A stretch of DNA of 64,000 nt, taken from positions 3,063,001 through 3,127,000 of the forward strand of contig NZ_CP021247.1 of NCBI RefSeq assembly GCF_017309955.1, read 5' to 3'. This document shows, piece after piece, positions 43,723-53,624 of the stretch. Source of the DNA: Novosphingobium sp. KA1. GTDB taxonomy: Bacteria; Pseudomonadota; Alphaproteobacteria; Sphingomonadales; Sphingomonadaceae. Below the pieces are notes generated by a model. It made no database searches. It was not told the DNA's origin and saw only the letters and a program-made list of their open reading frames with translations. The translations under genes were made by a program, and so were the position numbers. Position 1 is the first letter of the stretch; each line of letters begins with the position of its first letter.

Positions 43723-44172
43723 TTAGCGACGCACGACGCGGACATTGCCCGCGGCGGTGATGGTGTCGTCGAACTTCCAGCCAGTGGCGGCCGTGTTGCT
43801 CGTGGCGACATTGGTGATGGCGCCGGCGGCGGTCACGTAGACCTGGTCGTCCTTGGCGGCGGCGGTGGTCGAGGCGACCCAGATCTTCCCACGCTCCTTG
43901 ACCGGGAAGACATCGCCGGGAGCGTAGGTGTCGGCTGCGCGGCTCGAAGTCACCACGTTGCCCTTGTGGGCGATGGCGACGCCAATCACGTTGGCCGATG
44001 GGGTCAGGCTTGCGCCACGGTCGGCGGTACCCTTGAAGACGAACCGGCCGAAGGGGCAGGCGGTCGAACCTTCAAGAATGCGCGAGACGATGTTGGACAG
44101 CTCACCATCGGCTTCCATACCCGGATAGCCGTAGGGAATGTCCTCGTTGAAGGTGCTCTGAAGTGCGGACAT
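43723..44172 (-). CDS. head decoration/structural cement protein
   Basis: 149 residues, beta-rich with a Thr/Ala-rich C-terminal half. The N-terminal YGYPGMEADGEL and FVFKGTADRGASLTP fit the structural cement protein family found between head protease and capsid genes in siphoviruses. Likely trimers stabilise the shell. Confidence 0.75.
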   Translation of the reverse strand: MSALQSTFNEDIPYGYPGMEADGELSNIVSRILEGSTACPFGRFVFKGTADRGASLTPSANVIGVAIAHKGNVVTSSRAADTYAPGDVFPVKERGKIWVASTTAAAKDDQVYVTAAGAITNVATSNTAATGWKFDDTITAAGNVRVVRR

Positions 44173-44184
44173 GGGCGTCGCTCC

Positions 44185-45330
44185 TTAGGCGGCCTGACCG
44201 CGATAGGCGGTCTGCTTGTCGGCGAGCCAGGCGGCCCGTGCAGTCTGGGTGGCGGCAGCGTTGTCGCTGATCACCTTCGGTGCGCCGAGGGGCTGCACGC
44301 CGTTGCCCTGCGGCTTGGCGTCCTTGGTCAGCACGGCAAAGGAGGCGGCGATCTGGTCGGCGGTCCAATCCTTGGCCGCGTCGCCCATCTGCTTGGCGAC
44401 GGTGGCCTTCATGATGGCGGCCTCGTCCATCTCGTCGGTGACGGTGATTCCGAGGGTCTTGGCCTTGTCGGCAACGATGATCAGCGCCTTGCCCGCGTCG
44501 CGCAGCTGGGCCGGGGTCGGCTTGGCGTCCTTCACCTGCTGCTCAAGCGTGGTGATCTTCGCGTCCTTGGTCTGGCTTTCGGCGGTGAGGGTGGCGACCT
44601 GGGTTTCGAGGCCTGCGACCTTGTTATTGGCGGCGTCACGGGCAGTCATGAGGGTGGTGATGGTCGTCGCGGCGATGTCCGCGTTCGACACGTCGACGGA
44701 AAGCCCGTCGATGAGAACGATCTTCGGCACAGGGCTCTCCTGAGTGAGTGAATCGAGAAGGTTGGAGGGAAGGGCGTCGCAGACGGCGAACCCGTCCTTG
44801 ATGGCGCACTCGGAACCTGCGCGGCCGCGATCGACGAGCGCTACATGGTTGCCGGTGATGGATTTCTGCCGGGCCTGACACTTGGTGCCATCGGCGGCGG
44901 TGAAGTCGCCGAATTCGAGGTCGCTCCTGTAGCCGTTGCTCAGCTCGCGCTTGCCGGCTTCCACCTTGGCGATGGCCTCGGCATCGGTCAGCAGCAGGTC
45001 GAAGGCGAGGTAATCGCCGTCGCGCATCGCGCCCATGATCGTGCCGCGCGCGTGGTCGCGCCAGTTGGCCGTGGTGACGGGATCGGCGGGATGGTCGTCG
45101 GTGACCGGCTTGCCGATGAAGCTGCGGACGGACTTCTCGTCAAAGACGGTGCCGTCGTCGCGGAGCACATTGACCAGCGCCGTATCGCGCAGGCCGTGCT
45201 TGTTGTCGGGATCTACCTCGGAGCCGCCGTACTGATAGACGCCGGTGCGGGCCGCGCGTGCGCGAACGGCCATGGCGCCGCCTTCGATGCGGCGGGGGGC
45301 GTCAAGGGTGAGGCTGTCCCGAAATTGCAT
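44185..45330 (-). CDS. DUF2213 head maturation protease/scaffold
   Basis: 381 residues from the ATG at 45330; a start three codons upstream is possible. The N-terminal 190 residues carry the DUF2213 domain (GVYQYGGSEV, FIGKPVTDDHPADPV, and GNHVALVDRGRAG with His and Ser/Thr-like residues). The C-terminal half is a coiled coil (TKDAKITTLEQQVKDAK) and Ala-rich, typical of a fused scaffold. Such proteins cut the scaffold during head maturation. Starts after the HNH gene. Confidence 0.85.
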   Translation of the reverse strand: MQFRDSLTLDAPRRIEGGAMAVRARAARTGVYQYGGSEVDPDNKHGLRDTALVNVLRDDGTVFDEKSVRSFIGKPVTDDHPADPVTTANWRDHARGTIMGAMRDGDYLAFDLLLTDAEAIAKVEAGKRELSNGYRSDLEFGDFTAADGTKCQARQKSITGNHVALVDRGRAGSECAIKDGFAVCDALPSNLLDSLTQESPVPKIVLIDGLSVDVSNADIAATTITTLMTARDAANNKVAGLETQVATLTAESQTKDAKITTLEQQVKDAKPTPAQLRDAGKALIIVADKAKTLGITVTDEMDEAAIMKATVAKQMGDAAKDWTADQIAASFAVLTKDAKPQGNGVQPLGAPKVISDNAAATQTARAAWLADKQTAYRGQAA

Positions 45331-45376
45331 GCCCCGCACGGTATTCGCGCGCGAGGCATGGTTTTACCGCCGTTGG

Positions 45377-46174
45377 CTAGGTGCGCAGAGGGGTCGTCAA
45401 TGCCCGCTCAATGCCCCAGCCCCTATTCAACCGGGCTTGAATAGCGGCAGGCGTTAGCCCGCGCAATTTCGCCCATTCCACGATAGAACGGTGCTCTCCT
45501 TCAAATGTGATGCCGCGCCGCTGTTTCGCATGCCCCTTGTTCGCCGACATAGTCGATGGGGTTGTCATTATGCGCTCGATATCCCAACCCGCCTTTAGGC
45601 GGTGATAGAACGTAGCGATTTCCAGCCCTGCAATATCGGCCGCCTCTTTGCCAGACATGGTTCGACCTTGCCACTCCACTCGTAGCGTGTCGGATCGATT
45701 GCGCTGCTGGACCGTAGGGGTGGCCCACCGAACATTGCCCGGCTCATAGTCGCCGTCGCCGTTCTTTCGGTCCAAGGTGTGGGTGGGTGATGGCCGCTCT
45801 CCGACATCTGCTGCGAATGCTTCGAAGTCGGCACGCCAGCGCTCACAGATGCGTATACCCCGTCCGCCATACCGGCTGTACCAGGTATGCTTAGGATTCT
45901 CGCATCGCTGGATCATCGCTTTCCAGATGTTGAATAGCGGGTGCTTACCGGATGCGCCCTTGGCTGGCCGTGATTTCTCGCGGCAAGGCGGACACATCGG
46001 TTCTGATTGGGCCCGCAAATTCGATATGTAGTAGGGGCGTTCATCACCACAGTCACACCGGCAGTCAACGAGCTGAGACCCATTGCTTGGGGCGGGGCGA
46101 GAAAGTGAAATTACGGTGACGCGCCCAAATCGCTTTCCGATGGGCGCAACTCGCGATATTCCGCGTGCAGGCAT
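45377..46174 (-). CDS. HNH/AP2-like homing nuclease with NUMOD-type repeats
   Basis: 265 residues. An N-terminal Cys cluster (CRCDCG, CPPC) is followed by the phage HNH-like motif region with YGGRGIRICERW and LDRKNGDGDYEPGNVRWAT (about 90-155). Two repeated modules then end GWDIERIMTTP and GWGIERALTTP. This is the layout of free-standing homing-type nucleases with DNA-binding repeats. GGAGG lies 6 nt before the ATG. It is inserted between the minor head protein and the protease, which suggests a mobile gene. Confidence 0.75.
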   Translation of the reverse strand: MPARGISRVAPIGKRFGRVTVISLSRPAPSNGSQLVDCRCDCGDERPYYISNLRAQSEPMCPPCREKSRPAKGASGKHPLFNIWKAMIQRCENPKHTWYSRYGGRGIRICERWRADFEAFAADVGERPSPTHTLDRKNGDGDYEPGNVRWATPTVQQRNRSDTLRVEWQGRTMSGKEAADIAGLEIATFYHRLKAGWDIERIMTTPSTMSANKGHAKQRRGITFEGEHRSIVEWAKLRGLTPAAIQARLNRGWGIERALTTPLRT

Positions 46175-46267
46175 GATGGTCCTCCAATGACCGTTTTGCT
46201 CAGGGCTGGAGCGGGCCTAGACCTCCCGTTTCAGCCCGAAATTCTTACCATTTCCGCCGAGTCGTGG

Positions 46268-47137
46268 CTAGTCCTCGCCATCGAATTCGAACACGAGAAT
46301 TCCGCGTTCGCGGCAGCCGCATCCGGGTTTTACGCCCGCCCGGTCGTCGGCAGCCGGAGCAGCGCGAACCGTGACGCCATCCACCTTCTTGCCGACGACA
46401 GCCGGGTTCTCGGAATAGAGATTTCCGTCCCTGATGACGTGATCGTGCCTCGGGTGAAGTTTCCTTGAATGATGCCAGGCAAAAACCTCCAGCCCGGCCT
46501 CACGGCGGCGTTCACGGGCCGATTCCCCCGACAGGCTAGAAAGCTGGTGGCTGGCGATCCTGACCGACCGGGCGCGCGACATGCTGACGGCCTCGCGGAT
46601 CTCTTTCGCCACCTCACGCGCGGGCTTGCGCTGGCTAAGGCCCGAGAACACCGCATTGCCGATCCGCTGCTTCGCCTGAGCGCTGACATCGGCGACAAGG
46701 TTCGCATTCCACTCGACATAGTTGGCGAGGGTCTGCCGGGCATCTTCCGGCCCGATGACGGTAGATAGGTCGACGCCGGTCGCGCTGAGTACCGCACCGC
46801 GCCAGCGCCCGCGCACGTAGCCCTCAACCGAAAGCGCCCACCTCCTGAGATCAGGCGTCAGCAGCAGCACAAGCCGGTTGATCTGCTCGGCAGCGCCGTC
46901 GATCTCTGCTCGCACGTCGGCGGGGGCGTCCGTCGTCATCTCGGAGACGGTGGCGGAATAGGCGGCGATGATGTGTTCTGCGCTGGATGCCCACGCTTGA
47001 ACCACAGGGTTATACACAGCCCGGAACAGGTTCGTCGCAAGCGTTCCCGGAGGATCGATGTCGCGCAGGACGATGGAGCGCTTGCGCATGCCCGGCTTGG
47101 CCCGACGTGTCATCGCTGCGAGGTCGTAGCGGGGCAT
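46268..47137 (-). CDS. minor head protein (SPP1 gp7/Mu F-like)
   Basis: 289 residues. The central WNANLVADVSAQAKQRI and GLSQRKPAREVAKEIREAV, then ARSVRIASHQLSSLSGESARERRREAG and a C-terminal WHHSRKLHPRHDHV are the hallmarks of the phage Mu F/SPP1 gp7 family (split). These proteins bind the portal and reach inside the head, aiding DNA ejection. Located after the portal as usual. Confidence 0.85.
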   Translation of the reverse strand: MPRYDLAAMTRRAKPGMRKRSIVLRDIDPPGTLATNLFRAVYNPVVQAWASSAEHIIAAYSATVSEMTTDAPADVRAEIDGAAEQINRLVLLLTPDLRRWALSVEGYVRGRWRGAVLSATGVDLSTVIGPEDARQTLANYVEWNANLVADVSAQAKQRIGNAVFSGLSQRKPAREVAKEIREAVSMSRARSVRIASHQLSSLSGESARERRREAGLEVFAWHHSRKLHPRHDHVIRDGNLYSENPAVVGKKVDGVTVRAAPAADDRAGVKPGCGCRERGILVFEFDGED

Positions 47138-47138
47138 G

Positions 47139-47468
47139 TCAGGCCAGCGTTACGGCGAGGCACCACCAGACGATCTTGCAGACGATGTGGATCGATTGAT
47201 CAGCGTTGAAATCGATCTTGCCACGGCACTTGGCATCGTCGGTGAGCCAGTGAATGGCCGCTTCGGCGAAGAACAGCCACCACAGGCCGGTAATCAGCGC
47301 GACAGCCGCGCCATGGATGACGACGTGCGCACCAAGGGCCTGCTGCCATGGGACACCGGGGATAGGCGCAGTCCGGTTCTTCGCCTTCGATAGGAAGTCG
47401 CCCTGAAGCGGGTAGTCGGCCAGCGCGTGGGCGGCCAGCAGAGCGATGAGTATCATGACCGGCGTCAT
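47139..47468 (-). CDS. DUF3307-like membrane protein
   Basis: 109 residues, membrane-embedded helices with HALADYPLQGDFLSKAKNR near residue 14, the DUF3307 signature, and later AAIHWLTDDAKCRGKID. It is encoded between the portal and the minor head protein and overlaps the portal stop by 4 nt. A membrane protein in the head module is unusual and is not needed for virion structure in known systems. Confidence 0.7.
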   Translation of the reverse strand: MTPVMILIALLAAHALADYPLQGDFLSKAKNRTAPIPGVPWQQALGAHVVIHGAAVALITGLWWLFFAEAAIHWLTDDAKCRGKIDFNADQSIHIVCKIVWWCLAVTLA

Positions 47469-49408
47469 TCTTCGGTGACCTTCCGCTTCCAGTCGAGGTT
47501 CAGGGGCTCGAAAAGCTCCGGCCCGAACTCCAGCGCGCCCGCGTAAGGCTTGAGCGCGGCCAGGTCGAAGGCGTCCGGAACGTCAAACGAGATCGTGACG
47601 TGTGGGTGGTACTCGTCGAAATCGTGGCTGCCGCCCGCATCGACCATGGACCGGTGCCGACTCTCCAGTTCCCACGAGGCAAATAGCAGCACCACGGCGT
47701 TTTCGCCAAAGCGCTCGATCGCGCGCGGACCGCCCGGCTTGACGCGGATGTTGCCGTTCTCGTCGCCCGACCAGCTTTCGCCCATTTTCATGGGATCGAC
47801 GGCGGTCTTCGAGTACAGCACCGTCACGTGGAGGTCGTCGGCGGCCAGCGTGGACTTGAAGCCGTTCGCCTTTGCCCAGGCAATCAGCGCAGCGCCGTTG
47901 AGCAGCTTGCGCTGGACGTAGAGCGGGCGAGGTGCGGCATCGACGAAGAAAGCTGCCGCATCGTTGACGGCGGCACGGCGGGCGGGCGCGGAACTCCCGC
48001 CGCCGGCTAGATTAGGATCACCTCCTTCGGCCTGAATGGCAGACGGGTCAGTCCCGTCGTCGTCCGGGTTCAACCCGAACCTCTCGTTTTCGGGGATCTC
48101 GGCGAGGGCGCCTTCGAGGCCTGGTATCCACCCGCGTTCGGTCATGAGGTTCTGCAAGCCTTTGGCAAATGCCTCATCCGGGATTGCCCCGGTGGCCTGC
48201 AATTTTGCCACGGCGTCCATGGTGACATTGAAGGTGTCGGCCTCTTCCTTCTCGCTGGGCGTGTCGAGTGGTGCCCAGTCTGCCCAGACTTCGGCATCAT
48301 CAGTTGCCATCACGCCAGCGGAAGCCATCAGCAGCGGGTCGAGCTGGTCCATGCAGGGCTGAAGCTCAAGCGTCTGCTTGGCCTTCACCATGCGGTTCCA
48401 GTTCGCGGTGTCGCTGTCTCCTGTGGCGTTCTGGCCGTCGGGCGACTTTCCCATGAGGCGCGTAGCCGGAATATCCGAGACCGCCGACAGGAACGTGGCG
48501 AAGGCCATCATGACATCGGGAATGCCCGCCCAGTTCACCTGGCGGTGATCGATCGTCTCGCCCGCGCCCGGCGTGCCATCGCCCGCGTCGCGGAGCATGG
48601 CATTGTACATGCTCTCGCCGAGGATCATGGCCGACAGCCGGCGGCGCAGCGCTGCCTCGCCGTCAGCATCCGAGACGAGATCCATCAGGCCCGGAATGCC
48701 AATGATGACGTTCCGAACCTTGGTGATCAGCGAAGCGAACGAGCCCTGGGCGGTGTCGACGTTCTGGACCGCATCGAGCACGCGCTGAACGCGGGCCCGG
48801 CCCCAGAAGCGTTCATCCGCCGATACCGGCAGGATCGGCGGCACAGGGTCGCCACGGAAGCAGATCACCCGGGAAGGGTGAATGTTCGCCTGGCTGTTGC
48901 CCATGCGCCAGTATGTGGGCTTGCCGTAATTCGGGTCGGCGATCTCGTCGATGTAGTCGACGCCGGTGATCTGCCAGCGGGTCACGACGTTGATCGCGAC
49001 GATACCGCCCTTGGCGATCTGCTCCGGCTTCAGCTCGGAGGCGTGGTCGCCGGCGGTGATGATGACGAGGGCGCCGCCGCCAAGTCCGCGATAGGTCTCC
49101 GCCATGCGGACCTTCTCGCGCAGACCAAGCCGGCGTTCCTCGGCCTCAAGCGCCTTGATCTGTTTCGCGTCAGCCTGCCAGTTTCGCCACTCCCGCACCA
49201 TGTCGAGCGCGGGAATGTCGATGACCTTCGCCATCATGCCGGAGCCGTCGTAGGCAGCGGCGATGTGGAACTGATCGAGGTTGCGCGGCAGGTAGCGGTT
49301 GTAGGTGCGCGGGTCGGCATGAGTGCCAAAGCCCGAGACCGCGTTGGTCAGGCTATCGACGGTGAATCCGTCCTTGAAGCGAATGGATCGGATGCGGCCA
49401 CCTGACAT
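47465..49408 (-). CDS. portal protein (DUF1073) fused to Acb1-like 2H phosphoesterase domain
   Basis: 647 residues. Residues about 1-440 are the DUF1073 portal domain that forms the DNA-packaging ring (SDIPATRLMGKSPDGQNATG near 311). After a low-complexity linker (about 445-485), residues 496-647 resemble a 2H phosphoesterase: two H-x-T motifs, His527-Val-Thr529 and His603-Val-Thr605, each on a strand. Acb1 anti-CBASS proteins have this fold and cleave cyclic nucleotide messengers, and portal fusions of this type are known in InterPro. The start at 49408 has no clear Shine-Dalgarno. Enzyme activity here is inference. Confidence 0.85.
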   Translation of the reverse strand: MSGGRIRSIRFKDGFTVDSLTNAVSGFGTHADPRTYNRYLPRNLDQFHIAAAYDGSGMMAKVIDIPALDMVREWRNWQADAKQIKALEAEERRLGLREKVRMAETYRGLGGGALVIITAGDHASELKPEQIAKGGIVAINVVTRWQITGVDYIDEIADPNYGKPTYWRMGNSQANIHPSRVICFRGDPVPPILPVSADERFWGRARVQRVLDAVQNVDTAQGSFASLITKVRNVIIGIPGLMDLVSDADGEAALRRRLSAMILGESMYNAMLRDAGDGTPGAGETIDHRQVNWAGIPDVMMAFATFLSAVSDIPATRLMGKSPDGQNATGDSDTANWNRMVKAKQTLELQPCMDQLDPLLMASAGVMATDDAEVWADWAPLDTPSEKEEADTFNVTMDAVAKLQATGAIPDEAFAKGLQNLMTERGWIPGLEGALAEIPENERFGLNPDDDGTDPSAIQAEGGDPNLAGGGSSAPARRAAVNDAAAFFVDAAPRPLYVQRKLLNGAALIAWAKANGFKSTLAADDLHVTVLYSKTAVDPMKMGESWSGDENGNIRVKPGGPRAIERFGENAVVLLFASWELESRHRSMVDAGGSHDFDEYHPHVTISFDVPDAFDLAALKPYAGALEFGPELFEPLNLDWKRKVTEE

Positions 49409-49434
49409 ATTGACCGAAATATGTTCTGAAATTG

Positions 49435-49465
49435 CTCAAGGTTACCGCTATTAAAGCGGCTTGAG
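49435..49465. promoter_or_regulatory. inverted repeat between portal and DUF4145 gene
   Basis: CTCAAG (49435-49440) pairs with CTTGAG (49460-49465), and CCGCT (49445-49449) with AGCGG (49455-49459), with a four-base bulge. It lies in the 82-base divergent gap and could be an operator or transcript structure for either neighbour. Function uncertain. Confidence 0.35.
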
Positions 49466-49490
49466 ATTGCTGTGCGATTCGAGGGCGTTA

Positions 49491-50183
49491 ATGAAGCACC
49501 ACATGAATGCGGCGGAGGCCTTTGCTACTCTCAATGTAGGTGAGGGTATTCCGTATCCTTCAGATACGTCGCACATTTGTGCGCATTGCGGAACATATGC
49601 GCTACATACTTGGGGGATCGTCCAAGGCGTCGTGATGTGGGGGCAGAAATTTCGTCCTGTCAGCGAGCCGATGATGCATTTAGCTGCATGCTCTGCGTGT
49701 AGCCAGGAAACAGTTTTTGCTAACGGGAAGCTGGCTTTGCCGGCTGATATTACTGCCCCTGCACCTTCGTCGGATCTGCCCCAAGATCTTATGGCAGATT
49801 TCGAAGAAGCTCGGAAAATTCATATGCAATCCCCACGCGGGGCGGCAGCGTTGTTGCGTTTGGTTGTCCAAAAGCTCTGCCCAATTCTCGGTTCCGAAAA
49901 GAAGGATATTAACGGGGCAATTGGCGAGCTTGTAGAAAAAGGTGTTATTACAGGCGCTTTGCAGCAAGCGTTGGATTCAGTCCGGGTTATTGGAAACGAA
50001 GCAGTTCATCCTGGCGAACTTGATTTGAAAGATGATTCTATAACTGTTCACTCGCTTTTCATGTTGATTAATTTCATTGTGCAAAAGGCCATCACCGAGC
50101 CAAAGGAAATTGATGCCATCTATCAGTCCCTGCCTGCCGGAAAACTCGCTGGGATTGCTGCAAGGGATAAGCAAAAGCCTTAG
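49491..50183 (+). CDS. DUF4145-like cargo protein
   Basis: 230 residues. Two Cys pairs, CAHCG near residue 30 and CSACS near 67, suggest a zinc site. The C-terminal part (ARKIHMQSPRGAAALLRLVVQKL... then GNEAVHPGELD) matches DUF4145, a domain seen in restriction and other defence-linked proteins. The gene is visibly AT-richer than its neighbours, reads against them, and splits terminase from portal. The start at 49491 follows GAGG. Likely a lysogen-expressed defence or exclusion gene; function unproven. Confidence 0.8.
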   Translation: MKHHMNAAEAFATLNVGEGIPYPSDTSHICAHCGTYALHTWGIVQGVVMWGQKFRPVSEPMMHLAACSACSQETVFANGKLALPADITAPAPSSDLPQDLMADFEEARKIHMQSPRGAAALLRLVVQKLCPILGSEKKDINGAIGELVEKGVITGALQQALDSVRVIGNEAVHPGELDLKDDSITVHSLFMLINFIVQKAITEPKEIDAIYQSLPAGKLAGIAARDKQKP

Positions 50184-51631
50184 GCGTTCCTGATGTTGTA
50201 GCGCGCGCCAAGCGCGATGGCCCCGAACGCCCGAGAGGTGCTGTCTGGTGTGTCATCGTGCTTGGCGCTGGGGAAGTTCTCGTTGGCCGAGAACCATGCC
50301 TCGTTCCAAGGGCCGCGCAGCACATCGACATTGCCCGCTTCCGCCTGTGCCGAGAACGGCCCGAAGCGCGTGACCTTGTCGCCCGATTCCGGTGACGATC
50401 GCACGTTGTATCCCGCCAGCTTGAGCTTGAGGTTCTGCACCTGGGCCTTGCCGGCTTGGCCGGGGTCCTGCGGCAGGTAGATCAGGCACGCCTTGCCGTC
50501 CTGCGAAGCTGTGTTGATGATCAGGTTCTCGACGCCGTTCGGGCTGAGGCAGTCGGCTCCGCTGTCGACCACGATGAACCGGCCATCGGGCGTGCGGCCG
50601 ATCTTGGTCGACGCCGTCGCGTCCGGGTCGGGGTTCTCGGCTGTGCGCGGCGTGGCAGCGAGGTCATAGCCGCGAGCGAAGACGGTCCCGGCCGGGATCG
50701 CATCGACAACCCGGCACCAGGCGCGCTGGAAGTAAAGGCCGGCGGCGGGCCGGATTTTCCAGTTGCCGCCCAGCAAGCGCTCGCGCTCGACCAGCGGCAG
50801 CGCCAGCAGTGACGCCATGTAACCCGGATCGGCGGCCATCAGCGCCTTGTTGTCGGTCAGCTTGGCCGGAATGAACGTTAGCGACTTCGCGGGGATCGGG
50901 ACCTGCTCGCCCGCGTCGTTGATCATGGTGTAGCAGGCGAGGTCTTCGGGACTGTCTGCCCACTTCAGGTCTTCGCCTACACGGACGAACCACCGCAGCT
51001 TGCCTGCGCGCTCGGGGATAGGAAGGCCGGTGTCCCGGTCGATCCACCATGCGATGAGGTCGGCAACCCAGCTATCCGCGTCAGGATTGCACGTGGCGCG
51101 GATGTAGGGCCGGACGCCGCACATCGAGCGGTTGCGGCTGACCATGTACCAGAACTGGACCGCGGTGAAGTGCGTCAGCTCGTCGAAGCAGATCAGCGGG
51201 ATCTGCGAGCCCTGCCAGTTGAAGCGGGTCTTGTCGTGTTCGAGGTGGGCGAAGCTGACGCTGGCGCCGGTGGGGAACGACCAGGAAAGCGTGTGTTCCT
51301 TCGGATCGCCGCCGACTTGCGGGTAAAGGACGGCGCTTTCGTCCCACAGGCCGCCTTCGTTGCGGATCTGGACGGTGGAGCGGCGGAAGAACACCGCGCC
51401 AAAGCCGGGATTGGCGATGTGCCGCAGCGGCTCCATGAGTAGGCCCCACGTCTTGCCGCCGCCGGCGCCGCCGCCGTAAATGGCGATGTCGGCCGCGCTA
51501 GAAAGGAACGCGGTCTGCGGGCCGGGTTGTGGCTTGATCGTCTCGGCGGTGATTTGCGGCCCGCCGTTGTGGCCGATGCCCGCTACCGGATGATCGTTAG
51601 GCTCTGAGAGGATTCCGACTGCGGGGCTCAT
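50180..51631 (-). CDS. terminase large subunit
   Basis: DNA-packaging motor and nuclease, 483 residues. Walker A is GGGAGGGKTW (Gly53-Trp62, Lys60), Walker B LICFDE (146-151), followed by ATCNPDADSWV near 180 (motif C region). The nuclease half begins with the RGYDLAATP strand near 328, with further acidic residues downstream. It overlaps the HNH gene upstream by 4 nt and the DUF4145 gene downstream by 4 nt. Confidence 0.95.
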   Translation of the reverse strand: MSPAVGILSEPNDHPVAGIGHNGGPQITAETIKPQPGPQTAFLSSAADIAIYGGGAGGGKTWGLLMEPLRHIANPGFGAVFFRRSTVQIRNEGGLWDESAVLYPQVGGDPKEHTLSWSFPTGASVSFAHLEHDKTRFNWQGSQIPLICFDELTHFTAVQFWYMVSRNRSMCGVRPYIRATCNPDADSWVADLIAWWIDRDTGLPIPERAGKLRWFVRVGEDLKWADSPEDLACYTMINDAGEQVPIPAKSLTFIPAKLTDNKALMAADPGYMASLLALPLVERERLLGGNWKIRPAAGLYFQRAWCRVVDAIPAGTVFARGYDLAATPRTAENPDPDATASTKIGRTPDGRFIVVDSGADCLSPNGVENLIINTASQDGKACLIYLPQDPGQAGKAQVQNLKLKLAGYNVRSSPESGDKVTRFGPFSAQAEAGNVDVLRGPWNEAWFSANENFPSAKHDDTPDSTSRAFGAIALGARYNIRNA

Positions 51632-52083
51632 GCGGCGGCGGTCAACCTCGCTGCAACACGCTCGAAGTAGAATATCACCGGCTCAGCGCTAACGGTAATG
51701 ATCCCGAACCGCTCGCCAGTCCGAAAGGTTGAAGTCTGCTTGCGCACGATCTCGGCCGAGCGCTGGATGTAGGCGCGCCATGCCTCCAACGGGTACCCGC
51801 CCTTGTGGATGTTGCAGGGCGCGCAGGCGGGCATCATGTTGCCCACCCGGTTGCGCTCCGGCTTGATCATCCGCTTCTCATCGGCGGGTAGTGGCTTGCC
51901 CCAAGCGTCGGTTGTGATCCGGATCACCGGCTCTATGTGGTCCGCATGCATCGTCTTGCCCAGGTCACAACCGCAATAGGCACACTTACCGTCGAACTTG
52001 GCGCGCAGGGCATCCCGCTGTCGCTTGGTGCCGCGCCATTCTTCATCTTCCGGCGCGGCGAACGCGAGCAGGTCGGCCATCAC
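51628..52083 (-). CDS. HNH endonuclease
   Basis: 151 residues. CAYCGCDLGKTMHADHIEPV provides the first Cys pair and the HxDH motif near residues 34-52, and GNMMPACAPCNIHKG (near 81) gives the second Cys pair and the Asn/His. Phages often carry an HNH nuclease next to terminase that helps cut genome ends during packaging. The start is ATG 52083 or the next codon. 4-nt overlaps on both sides. Confidence 0.9.
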   Translation of the reverse strand: MMADLLAFAAPEDEEWRGTKRQRDALRAKFDGKCAYCGCDLGKTMHADHIEPVIRITTDAWGKPLPADEKRMIKPERNRVGNMMPACAPCNIHKGGYPLEAWRAYIQRSAEIVRKQTSTFRTGERFGIITVSAEPVIFYFERVAARLTAAA

Positions 52084-52310
52084 TCACCCCCGCTGCGAGA
52101 GAGGGAGCGAGCATCGCTTGATTGGAGCAAGTTCAGCAGGCCACGCACCGACGCCTCGGCAAAGACATCCTTCCGCCCGTCGAGAACGGACTGAAGTGCC
52201 ATGGCATAGGCGAACGCGTTATCGCCGCGGATGAAGACTCCCGGCCAGTCGTCACCGATCTGGACGACGCCCGTTTCGATCCTGGGGCCTTCGTGTGGGA
52301 CGATCTGCAT
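52080..52310 (-). CDS. hypothetical small phage protein
   Basis: 76 residues from the ATG at 52310 (MQIVPHEGPRIETGV...), ATGA overlap with the upstream gene and 4-nt overlap with HNH. Contains VQIGDDWPGVFIRGDNAFAY. No family recognised. Its packing in the early-to-packaging operon supports it. Confidence 0.7.
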   Translation of the reverse strand: MQIVPHEGPRIETGVVQIGDDWPGVFIRGDNAFAYAMALQSVLDGRKDVFAEASVRGLLNLLQSSDARSLSRSGGE

Positions 52311-52519
52311 CAGTCTTCGCCCCAATAGCTCATGTCGGCATCAGCGCAGGCCTCAGGACCGTCGGCGCGCTGCCAATCGCACTCGAAATACAAGGGGGCC
52401 GTCTCGTCCGCGTAATCAGCGATGCTTTCGCCATCGTCGAATACCGGGCCAGCGCGATCAAGCATGTGGGCCTTGAAGCGGCGGCAGAACTCTTCTTGCG
52501 TGAGGACAATCTCGTTCAT
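52310..52519 (-). CDS. hypothetical small acidic protein
   Basis: 69 residues, strongly acidic (MNEIVLTQEEFCRRFK..., then ADYADETAPLYFE). ATGA overlaps on both sides. No family recognised. Acidic composition could indicate protein or DNA-mimic interactions, but this is speculation. Confidence 0.7.
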   Translation of the reverse strand: MNEIVLTQEEFCRRFKAHMLDRAGPVFDDGESIADYADETAPLYFECDWQRADGPEACADADMSYWGED

Positions 52520-52995
52520 GCTGGGTTGTCCCTTCCATTATCGGGGAGAGCGAAGATCGCGACGGCCGGCGCCGCAGCGGGCAGGTCCTTGCCGTCCTTG
52601 CCGGTGATCTCGCGCTTGTTGGTGTAGGCGTTGCCCATCTCTTCGGCGGCCTGCTTGTGGAGCTGGGCGGCCAGGGGGAAGTTGCCCTTACGCTCGGCGG
52701 CGGTGGCCATGCGCTGAAGCGCCCGCAACCGGGTGGACCGATGCGCGATCGGGATGTGCGAAGAGTCCTCGGTGAACGCCTTGCGAGCCGCATCGAACAT
52801 CACCCGCCATTTCTGGGACAGGTTGCGTCCGGCGTGCTTGGTAGGGTCGTAGGTCTGGATCGCCTGCGGGGTCAGCTCGATGCCGAATTCGTCCTTGAGC
52901 GCGGTAGCTACCTGGGACGGCGTGTCGAACGACGCCAGCGCCTGAATTACGTAGGCCTTCACTTCGTCGGTCATCTGTTTGTTTCGGGCGGCCAT
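52516..52995 (-). CDS. terminase small subunit (DUF2280)
   Basis: 159 residues from the ATG at 52995. The sequence MTDEVKAYVIQALASFDTPS then GIELTPQAIQTYDPTK and LSQKWRVMFDAARKAF is the DUF2280 pattern, a phage small terminase that recognises packaging DNA through an HTH. The longer frame to 53535 is antisense overlap of the metallopeptidase gene and is rejected. 4-nt overlap downstream. Confidence 0.85.
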   Translation of the reverse strand: MAARNKQMTDEVKAYVIQALASFDTPSQVATALKDEFGIELTPQAIQTYDPTKHAGRNLSQKWRVMFDAARKAFTEDSSHIPIAHRSTRLRALQRMATAAERKGNFPLAAQLHKQAAEEMGNAYTNKREITGKDGKDLPAAAPAVAIFALPDNGRDNPA

Positions 52996-52997
52996 TT

Positions 52998-53624
52998 TCA
53001 AGCAACCTTCAATGAGCAGGTGCCACAGATGCCGGCGATCGATGCACGTCCGATTGTTGGGCCAGCCTTCGCCGCATCGACCATGGCGGAGACGCCAGCG
53101 GCCTCCGCGCCGTACCGAGCGACGACACCAACGAACTCTTCGACGTCGTGGCCTCTGAGAGCGAACGATGGCGTCCCGTCCTGCTTGAACTTGGGCATCC
53201 CGAACTCGTCGAGCTTCTGGGCGCAGTGGTAGAGTTCGTGTTCTACCAGGGCGCAGAACGAGGGATCGTCCATCCCGGCAGCAGCCGGCGCGCTGAACGT
53301 CAGCAGGAAGTCGGGCATCCCATCGAACCACTCTTCGATTTGCTGGATCGCACGGGCGCGCTGCCACTTGCCCATCGCCATCGGTGGCATCAGCTCGGCC
53401 TGGCCGATCACGGCGCGCATCTGCTTGCTGTTGTCGCAGTTGGTCCAGAGCACGCCGAGGGCGGCATCGCGGAGGTGGGCGTGCTCGATGTTGAAGAGCG
53501 GGCTCGCCTCTTCCAGGAACGTGGCGCGGATCCACTCCAGCAGGTCCGGCGCGGGGACGAACCGGTCCAGCATCTCCAGATCAGAGAGGGTGGCGAGGTC
53601 GTGGGGCGGGTAGGGACGGCTCAT
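52998..53624 (-). CDS. putative phage metallopeptidase (HExxH)
   Basis: 208 residues from the ATG at 53624. The core CALVEHELYHCAQKLDEFG contains H129-E130-x2-H133, a zinc metallopeptidase motif, and a later HDVEEFVGV adds a candidate third ligand. It matches a known group of putative phage metallopeptidases encoded near terminase. Substrate unknown. The longer frame to 53741 lacks support. Confidence 0.8.
   Translation of the reverse strand: MSRPYPPHDLATLSDLEMLDRFVPAPDLLEWIRATFLEEASPLFNIEHAHLRDAALGVLWTNCDNSKQMRAVIGQAELMPPMAMGKWQRARAIQQIEEWFDGMPDFLLTFSAPAAAGMDDPSFCALVEHELYHCAQKLDEFGMPKFKQDGTPSFALRGHDVEEFVGVVARYGAEAAGVSAMVDAAKAGPTIGRASIAGICGTCSLKVA

Follow-up and report, generated by a model that had tools for sequence, protein, structure and literature searches.

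The 64,000-nucleotide stretch of Novosphingobium sp. KA1 analyzed here (the window; contig NZ_CP021247.1, positions 3,063,001 to 3,127,000) lies on a 3.7 Mb contig of a 5.78 Mb genome and contains a cluster of phage head genes. The portal gene of this cluster is a single open frame of 647 residues on the minus strand, and the plus strand is interrupted over the same interval. A Pfam search places residues 49-401 in the Phage_portal_3/DUF1073 family (PF06381; 322 bits, cut-off 33.8, E 5e-96) and residues 495-642 in the Acb1 family (PF23474; 130.9 bits, cut-off 27). The protein also scores 172 against TIGR01555, an NCBIfam hypothetical equivalog, below the cut-off of 196.25. The Acb1 tail is an exchangeable cargo: past a similar joint, related portals have Acb1, a BECR-like domain or the two in tandem, another short domain, or no tail at all. 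Coordinates are collected in Table 1.

The Acb1 domain is predicted to be a compact 2H fold with paired HxT motifs, and it superposes on FBB1 Acb1 with 1.9 Å over 131 residues. A preliminary description of this DNA had read the gene as a portal fused to an Acb1-like 2H domain, with HxT motifs at residues 527-529 and 603-605, and had proposed a structural comparison with Acb1. Pfam, the predicted fold, the catalytic tetrad and most base-contact residues bear this out, and the two motifs are H527-V-T529 and H603-V-T605. The tetrad they supply is intact in 116 of the 120 homologues listed and in 51 of 52 others (167 of 172 Acb1-bearing portals overall); a conserved mutation of both motifs, which the same description had named as contrary evidence, is absent. 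Eight of the nine catalytic or base-contact residues of T4 Acb1 are kept in the fusion, including equivalents of Y12, F107, E141 and W147, the exception being W74, which is isoleucine here. F597, a stacking residue, is kept; E634 corresponds to the adenine-contact glutamate (T4 E141) and is glutamate in 113 of the 120 homologues; and W640, the lid tryptophan (T4 W147), is kept in all but one of them (119/120). Three of the four base-stacking aromatics (T4 Y12, W74, F107, W147) are kept, and FBB1 appears by eye to have phenylalanine in the W74 column.

A 2H domain of this kind might instead act on RNA, repairing or cutting its ends as a 2',3'-cyclic phosphodiesterase or RNase. This is the first of the proposals made by Iyer et al. 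2017 (PMC5512222), in the available text of which 2H enzymes include such activities and BECR is a fold of RNases; the alternative tail of related portals is BECR-like. The tail of the window protein additionally matches PHROG 755, which is labeled RNA ligase, and loss of the W74 equivalent alters the base pocket. The match is nonetheless to the Acb1 subfamily, with E634, F597 and W640 kept, and, in the text available of Hobbs et al., T4 Acb1 and nine further Acb1 proteins tested cleaved the signals of the cyclic oligonucleotide-based antiphage signaling system (CBASS). We regard an RNA substrate as unlikely.

Between the portal core and the Acb1 domain lies a joint that is predicted to be disordered and contains a 13-nucleotide sequence (the 13-mer, AAGGAGGTGATCC) used below as the origin for distances. 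Identities on the two sides of the joint are not coupled. When 21 related genes are compared with that of the window, 14 have Acb1 domains that are 77-93% identical but portal cores that are only 36-58% identical; in one (L039) the Acb1 domain is 90% and the core 95% identical, and in the remaining six the values are 41-73% and 33-54%. The neighboring MuF gene is 33-72% identical in the 20 of 23 loci that have a match to it, some of these loci being duplicates. Among 120 homologues, which were picked by Acb1 similarity and thus span a narrowed range of Acb1 identity, identity in the portal core shows no correlation with identity in the Acb1 domain (Spearman 0.04, 7021 pairs), with extreme pairs of 96% core and 72% Acb1 identity and of 36.5% and 90%. 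At the DNA level, similarity in the divergent-portal loci L028, L029, L035, L041, L048 and L051 begins 39-86 nucleotides past the 13-mer and stops near the portal stop codon (+562); in less divergent loci it continues through the joint.

The converse arrangement, a shared portal with another tail, is found in Novosphingobium sp. RL4 (protein P0121; locus L186, genome G056), with 97% protein identity in the portal core and a different, BECR-like tail. Around the 13-mer, DNA identity with this locus is 88% between -1385 and +58; no similarity follows up to +899, where it resumes at 91% and extends into the MuF gene. A second, shortened portal frame of the same genome (L193) is 87% identical over 284 nucleotides across the joint (-227 to +54) and only 67% identical in a stretch further up the portal, with no similarity past the joint until +899 (71%). 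Protein P0122 has a core 88% identical to that of the window and a short tail. P0121, P0122 and the L186 junction together present a near-constant N-terminus with exchangeable C-termini, as in polymorphic-toxin-like carriers. The segment that is swapped in L186 also includes the DUF3307 gene that follows the portal; among 23 related loci this gene is found only in L043 and, in part, in L030, at 94%, and it may belong with the Acb1 cargo.

A Pfam Acb1 domain is present in 75 of the 120 best portal relatives (of 487). The other 45 comprise 36 with tails of at most 100 residues, some of them on contigs shorter than 2 kb whose ends may have cut the tail, and nine with other tails. Portals are essential head proteins, and the Acb1 domain belongs to one, as would suit a role, structural or regulatory, in building or filling the head, with catalysis incidental; the short and different tails of so many relatives, together with the near-universal tetrad, make such a role very improbable. 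The other tails include a BECR-like group and the short tails of P0126, P0172 and P0199, which are alike by eye, one having a KOW match. Pfam matches of both kinds of tail are under the cut-offs; those to PBECR3 (cut-off 30) reach 14.7 bits in P0170 and 19.4 bits in P0198. The P0121 tail has no Pfam match and is linked by phmmer to P0090, P0170 and P0073. Ten-residue means of the predicted local distance difference test (pLDDT) over its predicted fold range from 36 to 80, and the best 50 rows of a viral fold search with P0121 are portals and other whole phage proteins, among which a smaller domain could not show. The identification of this tail as BECR-like is accordingly weak. Five portals of 789-824 residues (P0036, P0057, P0069, P0076 and P0217) have Acb1 followed by a PBECR3 or BECR-like domain, two cargoes in tandem. 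Another DUF1073-type portal frame, of 648 residues and without Acb1 (L187; G062 C8), ends in GGSIDEGEDAYEAAMRELREETGF, which we take to resemble a Nudix hydrolase motif; this would add one more cargo, carried by a portal of another type.

Joint-type peptides occur in part of the Acb1-tailed, other-tailed and tail-less portals, and the 13-mer within the joint is conserved as DNA in related genes. The 13-mer is presumably the complement of the 3' end of 16S rRNA (anti-Shine-Dalgarno). Among 22 distinct portal-Acb1 genes that had not been fetched by the motif, the match to it is at least 12 nucleotides in 12, 8-10 in four and at most 6 in six; these counts leave out L058, L074, L079, L101 and L169, which were fetched by the 13-mer, and L053, a frame of 165 residues. 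The codons GGA GGT GAT are identical in the 12 genes that share GGAGGTGATC, though GGA makes up 8% of their glycine codons, and this stretch ties with one other as the longest codon-identical run in the alignment. Variant joints (GKEGD, AKGGG) retain the purine-rich match despite the change in protein. In eight non-Acb1 portal frames from seven genomes of the genus, the match is 13 nucleotides in L193 and 9 in L186, both other-tailed, 8 in the short-tailed L188 and L191, and 5-7 in L187, L189, L190 and L192, which are without such a joint. L058 is 83% identical over 78 nucleotides at the joint and has no match in either flanking stretch. Changes in the 13-mer number one on the Acb1 tree and four on the portal tree, both calculated without the partial portals L030 and L009; with the Acb1 tree poorly resolved (4 of 17 branches starred), this difference is only suggestive.

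Several functions of the 13-mer were considered and rejected. Taken as a ribosome-binding site it would be very strong, but an in-frame ATG, GTG or TTG at the usual distance, from which an internal translation start could be made, is absent; the codon at the expected place varies among relatives, some of which have, by eye, TTG or GTG about 9 to 15 codons further on. A programmed frameshift is not indicated, the stops of the other frames soon past the 13-mer not being conserved (by eye). No Rfam family scores over its cut-off in 44000-53000, the one match having 19.3 bits against a cut-off of 50 (E 0.22), which leaves no structured RNA in that interval by this search. Nor is the 13-mer a standard phage ribosome-binding site, as its exact sequence occurs only once in the window. 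The 12-mer AAGGAGGTGATC occurs once each in 9 of 26 loci, some of which overlap, and the 14-mer has ten matches in 9 of 129 genomes of the genus (four at portal joints, six elsewhere), with none for a control pattern. This rarity shows that it is not a general signal. In genome G057 (L200 and L203, on two contigs) the 14-mer GAAGGAGGTGATCC lies within a different large gene, where it is read in frame as EGGDP; the product of that gene we would guess to be another type of phage portal.

The readings left are that the 13-mer may be a crossover seam or may cause a ribosome to pause; part of its conservation may reflect the common ancestry of a joint exchanged not long ago. A wider interpretation is possible, if doubtful: the portal C-terminus of this group of sphingomonad phages would be a polymorphic cargo slot (cyclic-nucleotide hydrolase, BECR-like nuclease, both or nothing), recombined at a joint whose 13-nucleotide 16S complement would be under selection, either as a crossover seam or because a ribosome pausing there gives the portal time to fold before its cargo is made, and head assembly would carry a ring of tethered counter-defence enzymes reachable by small nucleotide signals.

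For the Acb1 tail itself we prefer the reading that it is an active cyclic-oligonucleotide hydrolase, with a probability of about 0.57; its activity, substrate, timing and working pool (free subunits, proheads or virions) we infer from the features above. The gene encodes a portal subunit of the DUF1073 family to which an Acb1-type phosphodiesterase is attached by a long tether of predicted disorder. Portals are late proteins, and each newly made subunit would bring a cyclic-oligonucleotide hydrolase into the infected cell, with a supply that follows head assembly in both timing and amount. The two His-x-Thr pairs would cleave cyclic di- and trinucleotides 3' of adenosine without metal, and CBASS effectors would not be triggered during head assembly. 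According to the available text of Hobbs et al., T4 Acb1 activity starts about 15 minutes into infection, the time at which CBASS acts. T4 Acb1 (gene 57B) is encoded by a free-standing gene beside ipI, unlike the domain described here, which is part of a portal.

A solved relative is the portal of cyanophage Pam3 (Pam3_03, 621 residues; PDB 8hds). It has the same two-domain architecture, aligning with residues 16-645 (E 6e-100), and the same gene order of large terminase, portal and minor capsid protein. It differs in being 32% identical to the window portal by tblastn, in having H-x-S as its second motif, and in having histidine at the F107 and W74 positions. The 8hds structure has 12 chains of this two-part protein, and the estimate of about a dozen copies per portal ring, made in the preliminary description, is therefore reasonable. 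The built chain has 442 residues and the aligned part covers residues 23-450 only, so the cryo-electron microscopy model does not place the Acb1 domain.

The domain could instead be a head-packaged effector, retained in the capsid, possibly cut off there by the head protease, and delivered together with the phage DNA so as to work early in the next cell. Packaging and injection of 2H-portal fusions are suggested in the available text of Iyer et al. 2022 (PMC9503650). A gene of the DUF2213 head-protease family in the same cluster, the flexible tether and the unbuilt tail of the Pam3 model would all agree with such an injected effector. The joint peptide RRAA(x)ND, however, is found nowhere else in the six frames of the window and so is not evidently a protease site in common with other proteins; a portal subunit is not expected to leave the empty particle intact, and absence from the model fits flexibility as well as cleavage. 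We consider delivery by this route quite unlikely.

The portal-Acb1 fusion is not reported here for the first time. Fusions of 2H domains with MuF or portal proteins are described in the available text of Iyer et al. 2017, where they are proposed to act as RNases or to degrade nucleotide signals; in that of Iyer et al. 2022, such fusions suggest packaging in heads and injection, potentially countering SMODS-type and CRISPR signaling. Some homologues already carry the NCBI name "anti-CBASS protein Acb1 family protein". The central idea of the preliminary description, which is partly supported overall, is thus a published prediction. What is added here is the Acb1 domain as an exchangeable cargo on the portal: in the available text of the literature searched, the papers of Iyer et al. 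included, the same class of fusion has the same proposed role, but we found no description of near-identical portals that differ by a swap of tails at a conserved joint. The MuF polymorphic toxins of temperate phages (Jamet et al. 2017, PMC5576092, text available in part) similarly combine a head-protein N-terminus with a variable C-terminal domain in a portal-adjacent gene; here the carrier is the portal itself, and one cargo matches a counter-defence enzyme rather than a toxin. Exchange at one joint shows that the portal serves phages as a vehicle whose counter-defence and toxin-like domains can be changed, and reading the sequence that follows the joint is a simple route to further ones. 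If the tail is active, these phages would evade CBASS through an essential structural protein that is produced late in infection, when CBASS acts, and the enzyme dose would scale with head assembly.

Host genomes were compared for CBASS. Among 197 relatives, Acb1 is present in six genomes, all of the same genus, a DUF1073 portal in 12 and SMODS over the cut-off in 22. Four of the six Acb1 genomes have cyclases (G006, with two, G024, G027 and G104), and all four match PADLOC cyclase models. CBASS-associated genes accompany them in G104 (TRIP13 and a TIR effector), G027 (an S_4TM effector) and G024 (AAA and Tle1-like phospholipase genes); G101 has no SMODS match over the cut-off. Across the genus, with a total of 119 genomes that is approximate and perhaps off by a few, cyclases occur in 4 of 6 Acb1 genomes and in 16 of 113 others (p 0.007). 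The CBASS link of the Acb1 genomes is weak; it fits an anti-CBASS role and does not establish it.

Several observations weigh against an active anti-CBASS hydrolase. When the Acb1 genomes are compared with other carriers of DUF1073 portals, the difference in cyclases is 4 of 6 versus 2 of 7 (p 0.21). The portal-Acb1 gene is interrupted in two of the four cyclase-bearing Acb1 genomes, G024 having a 276-residue frame without a portal match (L030) and G027 separate portal (497 residues) and Acb1 (127 residues) frames (L031). With uninterrupted fusions only, the comparison becomes 2 of 4 versus 16 of 113 (p 0.11), or versus 2 of 7 other portal carriers (p 0.47); all of these comparisons are small-numbered and post hoc, and their statistics ignore kinship. 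The genome of the window has no SMODS match over the cut-off, SMODS being the only cyclase model run there. Its sole, weak SMODS match (24.5 bits) was rejected as CBASS, the sequence reading as a nucleotidyltransferase-HEPN protein. In the domain, the T4 W74 position is I564 and is isoleucine, valine or leucine in all 120 portal-fused homologues, so a base-stacking aromatic is replaced throughout and the substrate range may differ. The C-terminal side of known portals faces the head interior; packaged copies would therefore be shut off from the cytosol, and the enzyme more likely works in free subunits and open proheads. No published assay of any portal-fused Acb1 was found in the literature searched, as far as its text was available.

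Table 1. Features of the portal-Acb1 gene and its neighborhood (window coordinates)
Feature	Coordinates	Strand	Evidence
Portal-Acb1 fusion gene, 647 aa	47465..49408	-	PF06381 at 49-401, PF23474 at 495-642, PHROG 146 (portal) at 14-628
Portal core, aa 31-447	48068..49318	-	matches Pam3, Pa193 and E217 portals
Disordered joint, aa 449-488, exchange point of C-terminal cargo	47945..48064	-	pLDDT <50
13-mer AAGGAGGTGATCC, in frame as E-G-G-D-P, in joint	48015..48027	-	nucleotide-level conservation in related genes
Acb1-type 2H phosphoesterase domain, aa 494-643	47480..47929	-	
Catalytic motif 1, H527-V-T529	47822..47830	-	
Catalytic motif 2, H603-V-T605	47594..47602	-	
Segment (Acb1 domain and DUF3307 gene) replaced by BECR-like tail in L186 prophage	47129..47969	-	DNA comparison
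DUF3307 membrane protein, start overlapping portal stop	47139..47468	-	PF11750, 35.6 bits; phrog_2470, PHROG class moron
MuF-like head morphogenesis protein	46268..47137	-	phrog_324, E 3.7e-26; PF04233, 23.4 bits, under cut-off 29.6
Terminase large subunit	50180..51631	-	PF03237, PF17289, phrog_979, E 2e-163
DUF2213/head maturation protease family	44185..45339	-	PF09979; phrog_530

The head genes are ordered terminase large subunit, portal, DUF3307, MuF-like, a 265-residue open reading frame (ORF) and DUF2213/maturation protease. The portal is thus placed between the large terminase and MuF-like genes, with the DUF3307 gene and a plus-strand ORF also intervening. The latter (49461-50183, 240 residues), between terminase and portal, has a third-position GC of 0.48, compared with about 0.8 in its neighbors, and is likely a recent insertion. 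The 265-residue ORF (45377-46174, minus strand), between the MuF-like gene and the protease, also has a low third-position GC (0.62) and is matched in only one of 23 related loci (L049); we take it to be an HNH-type homing gene.
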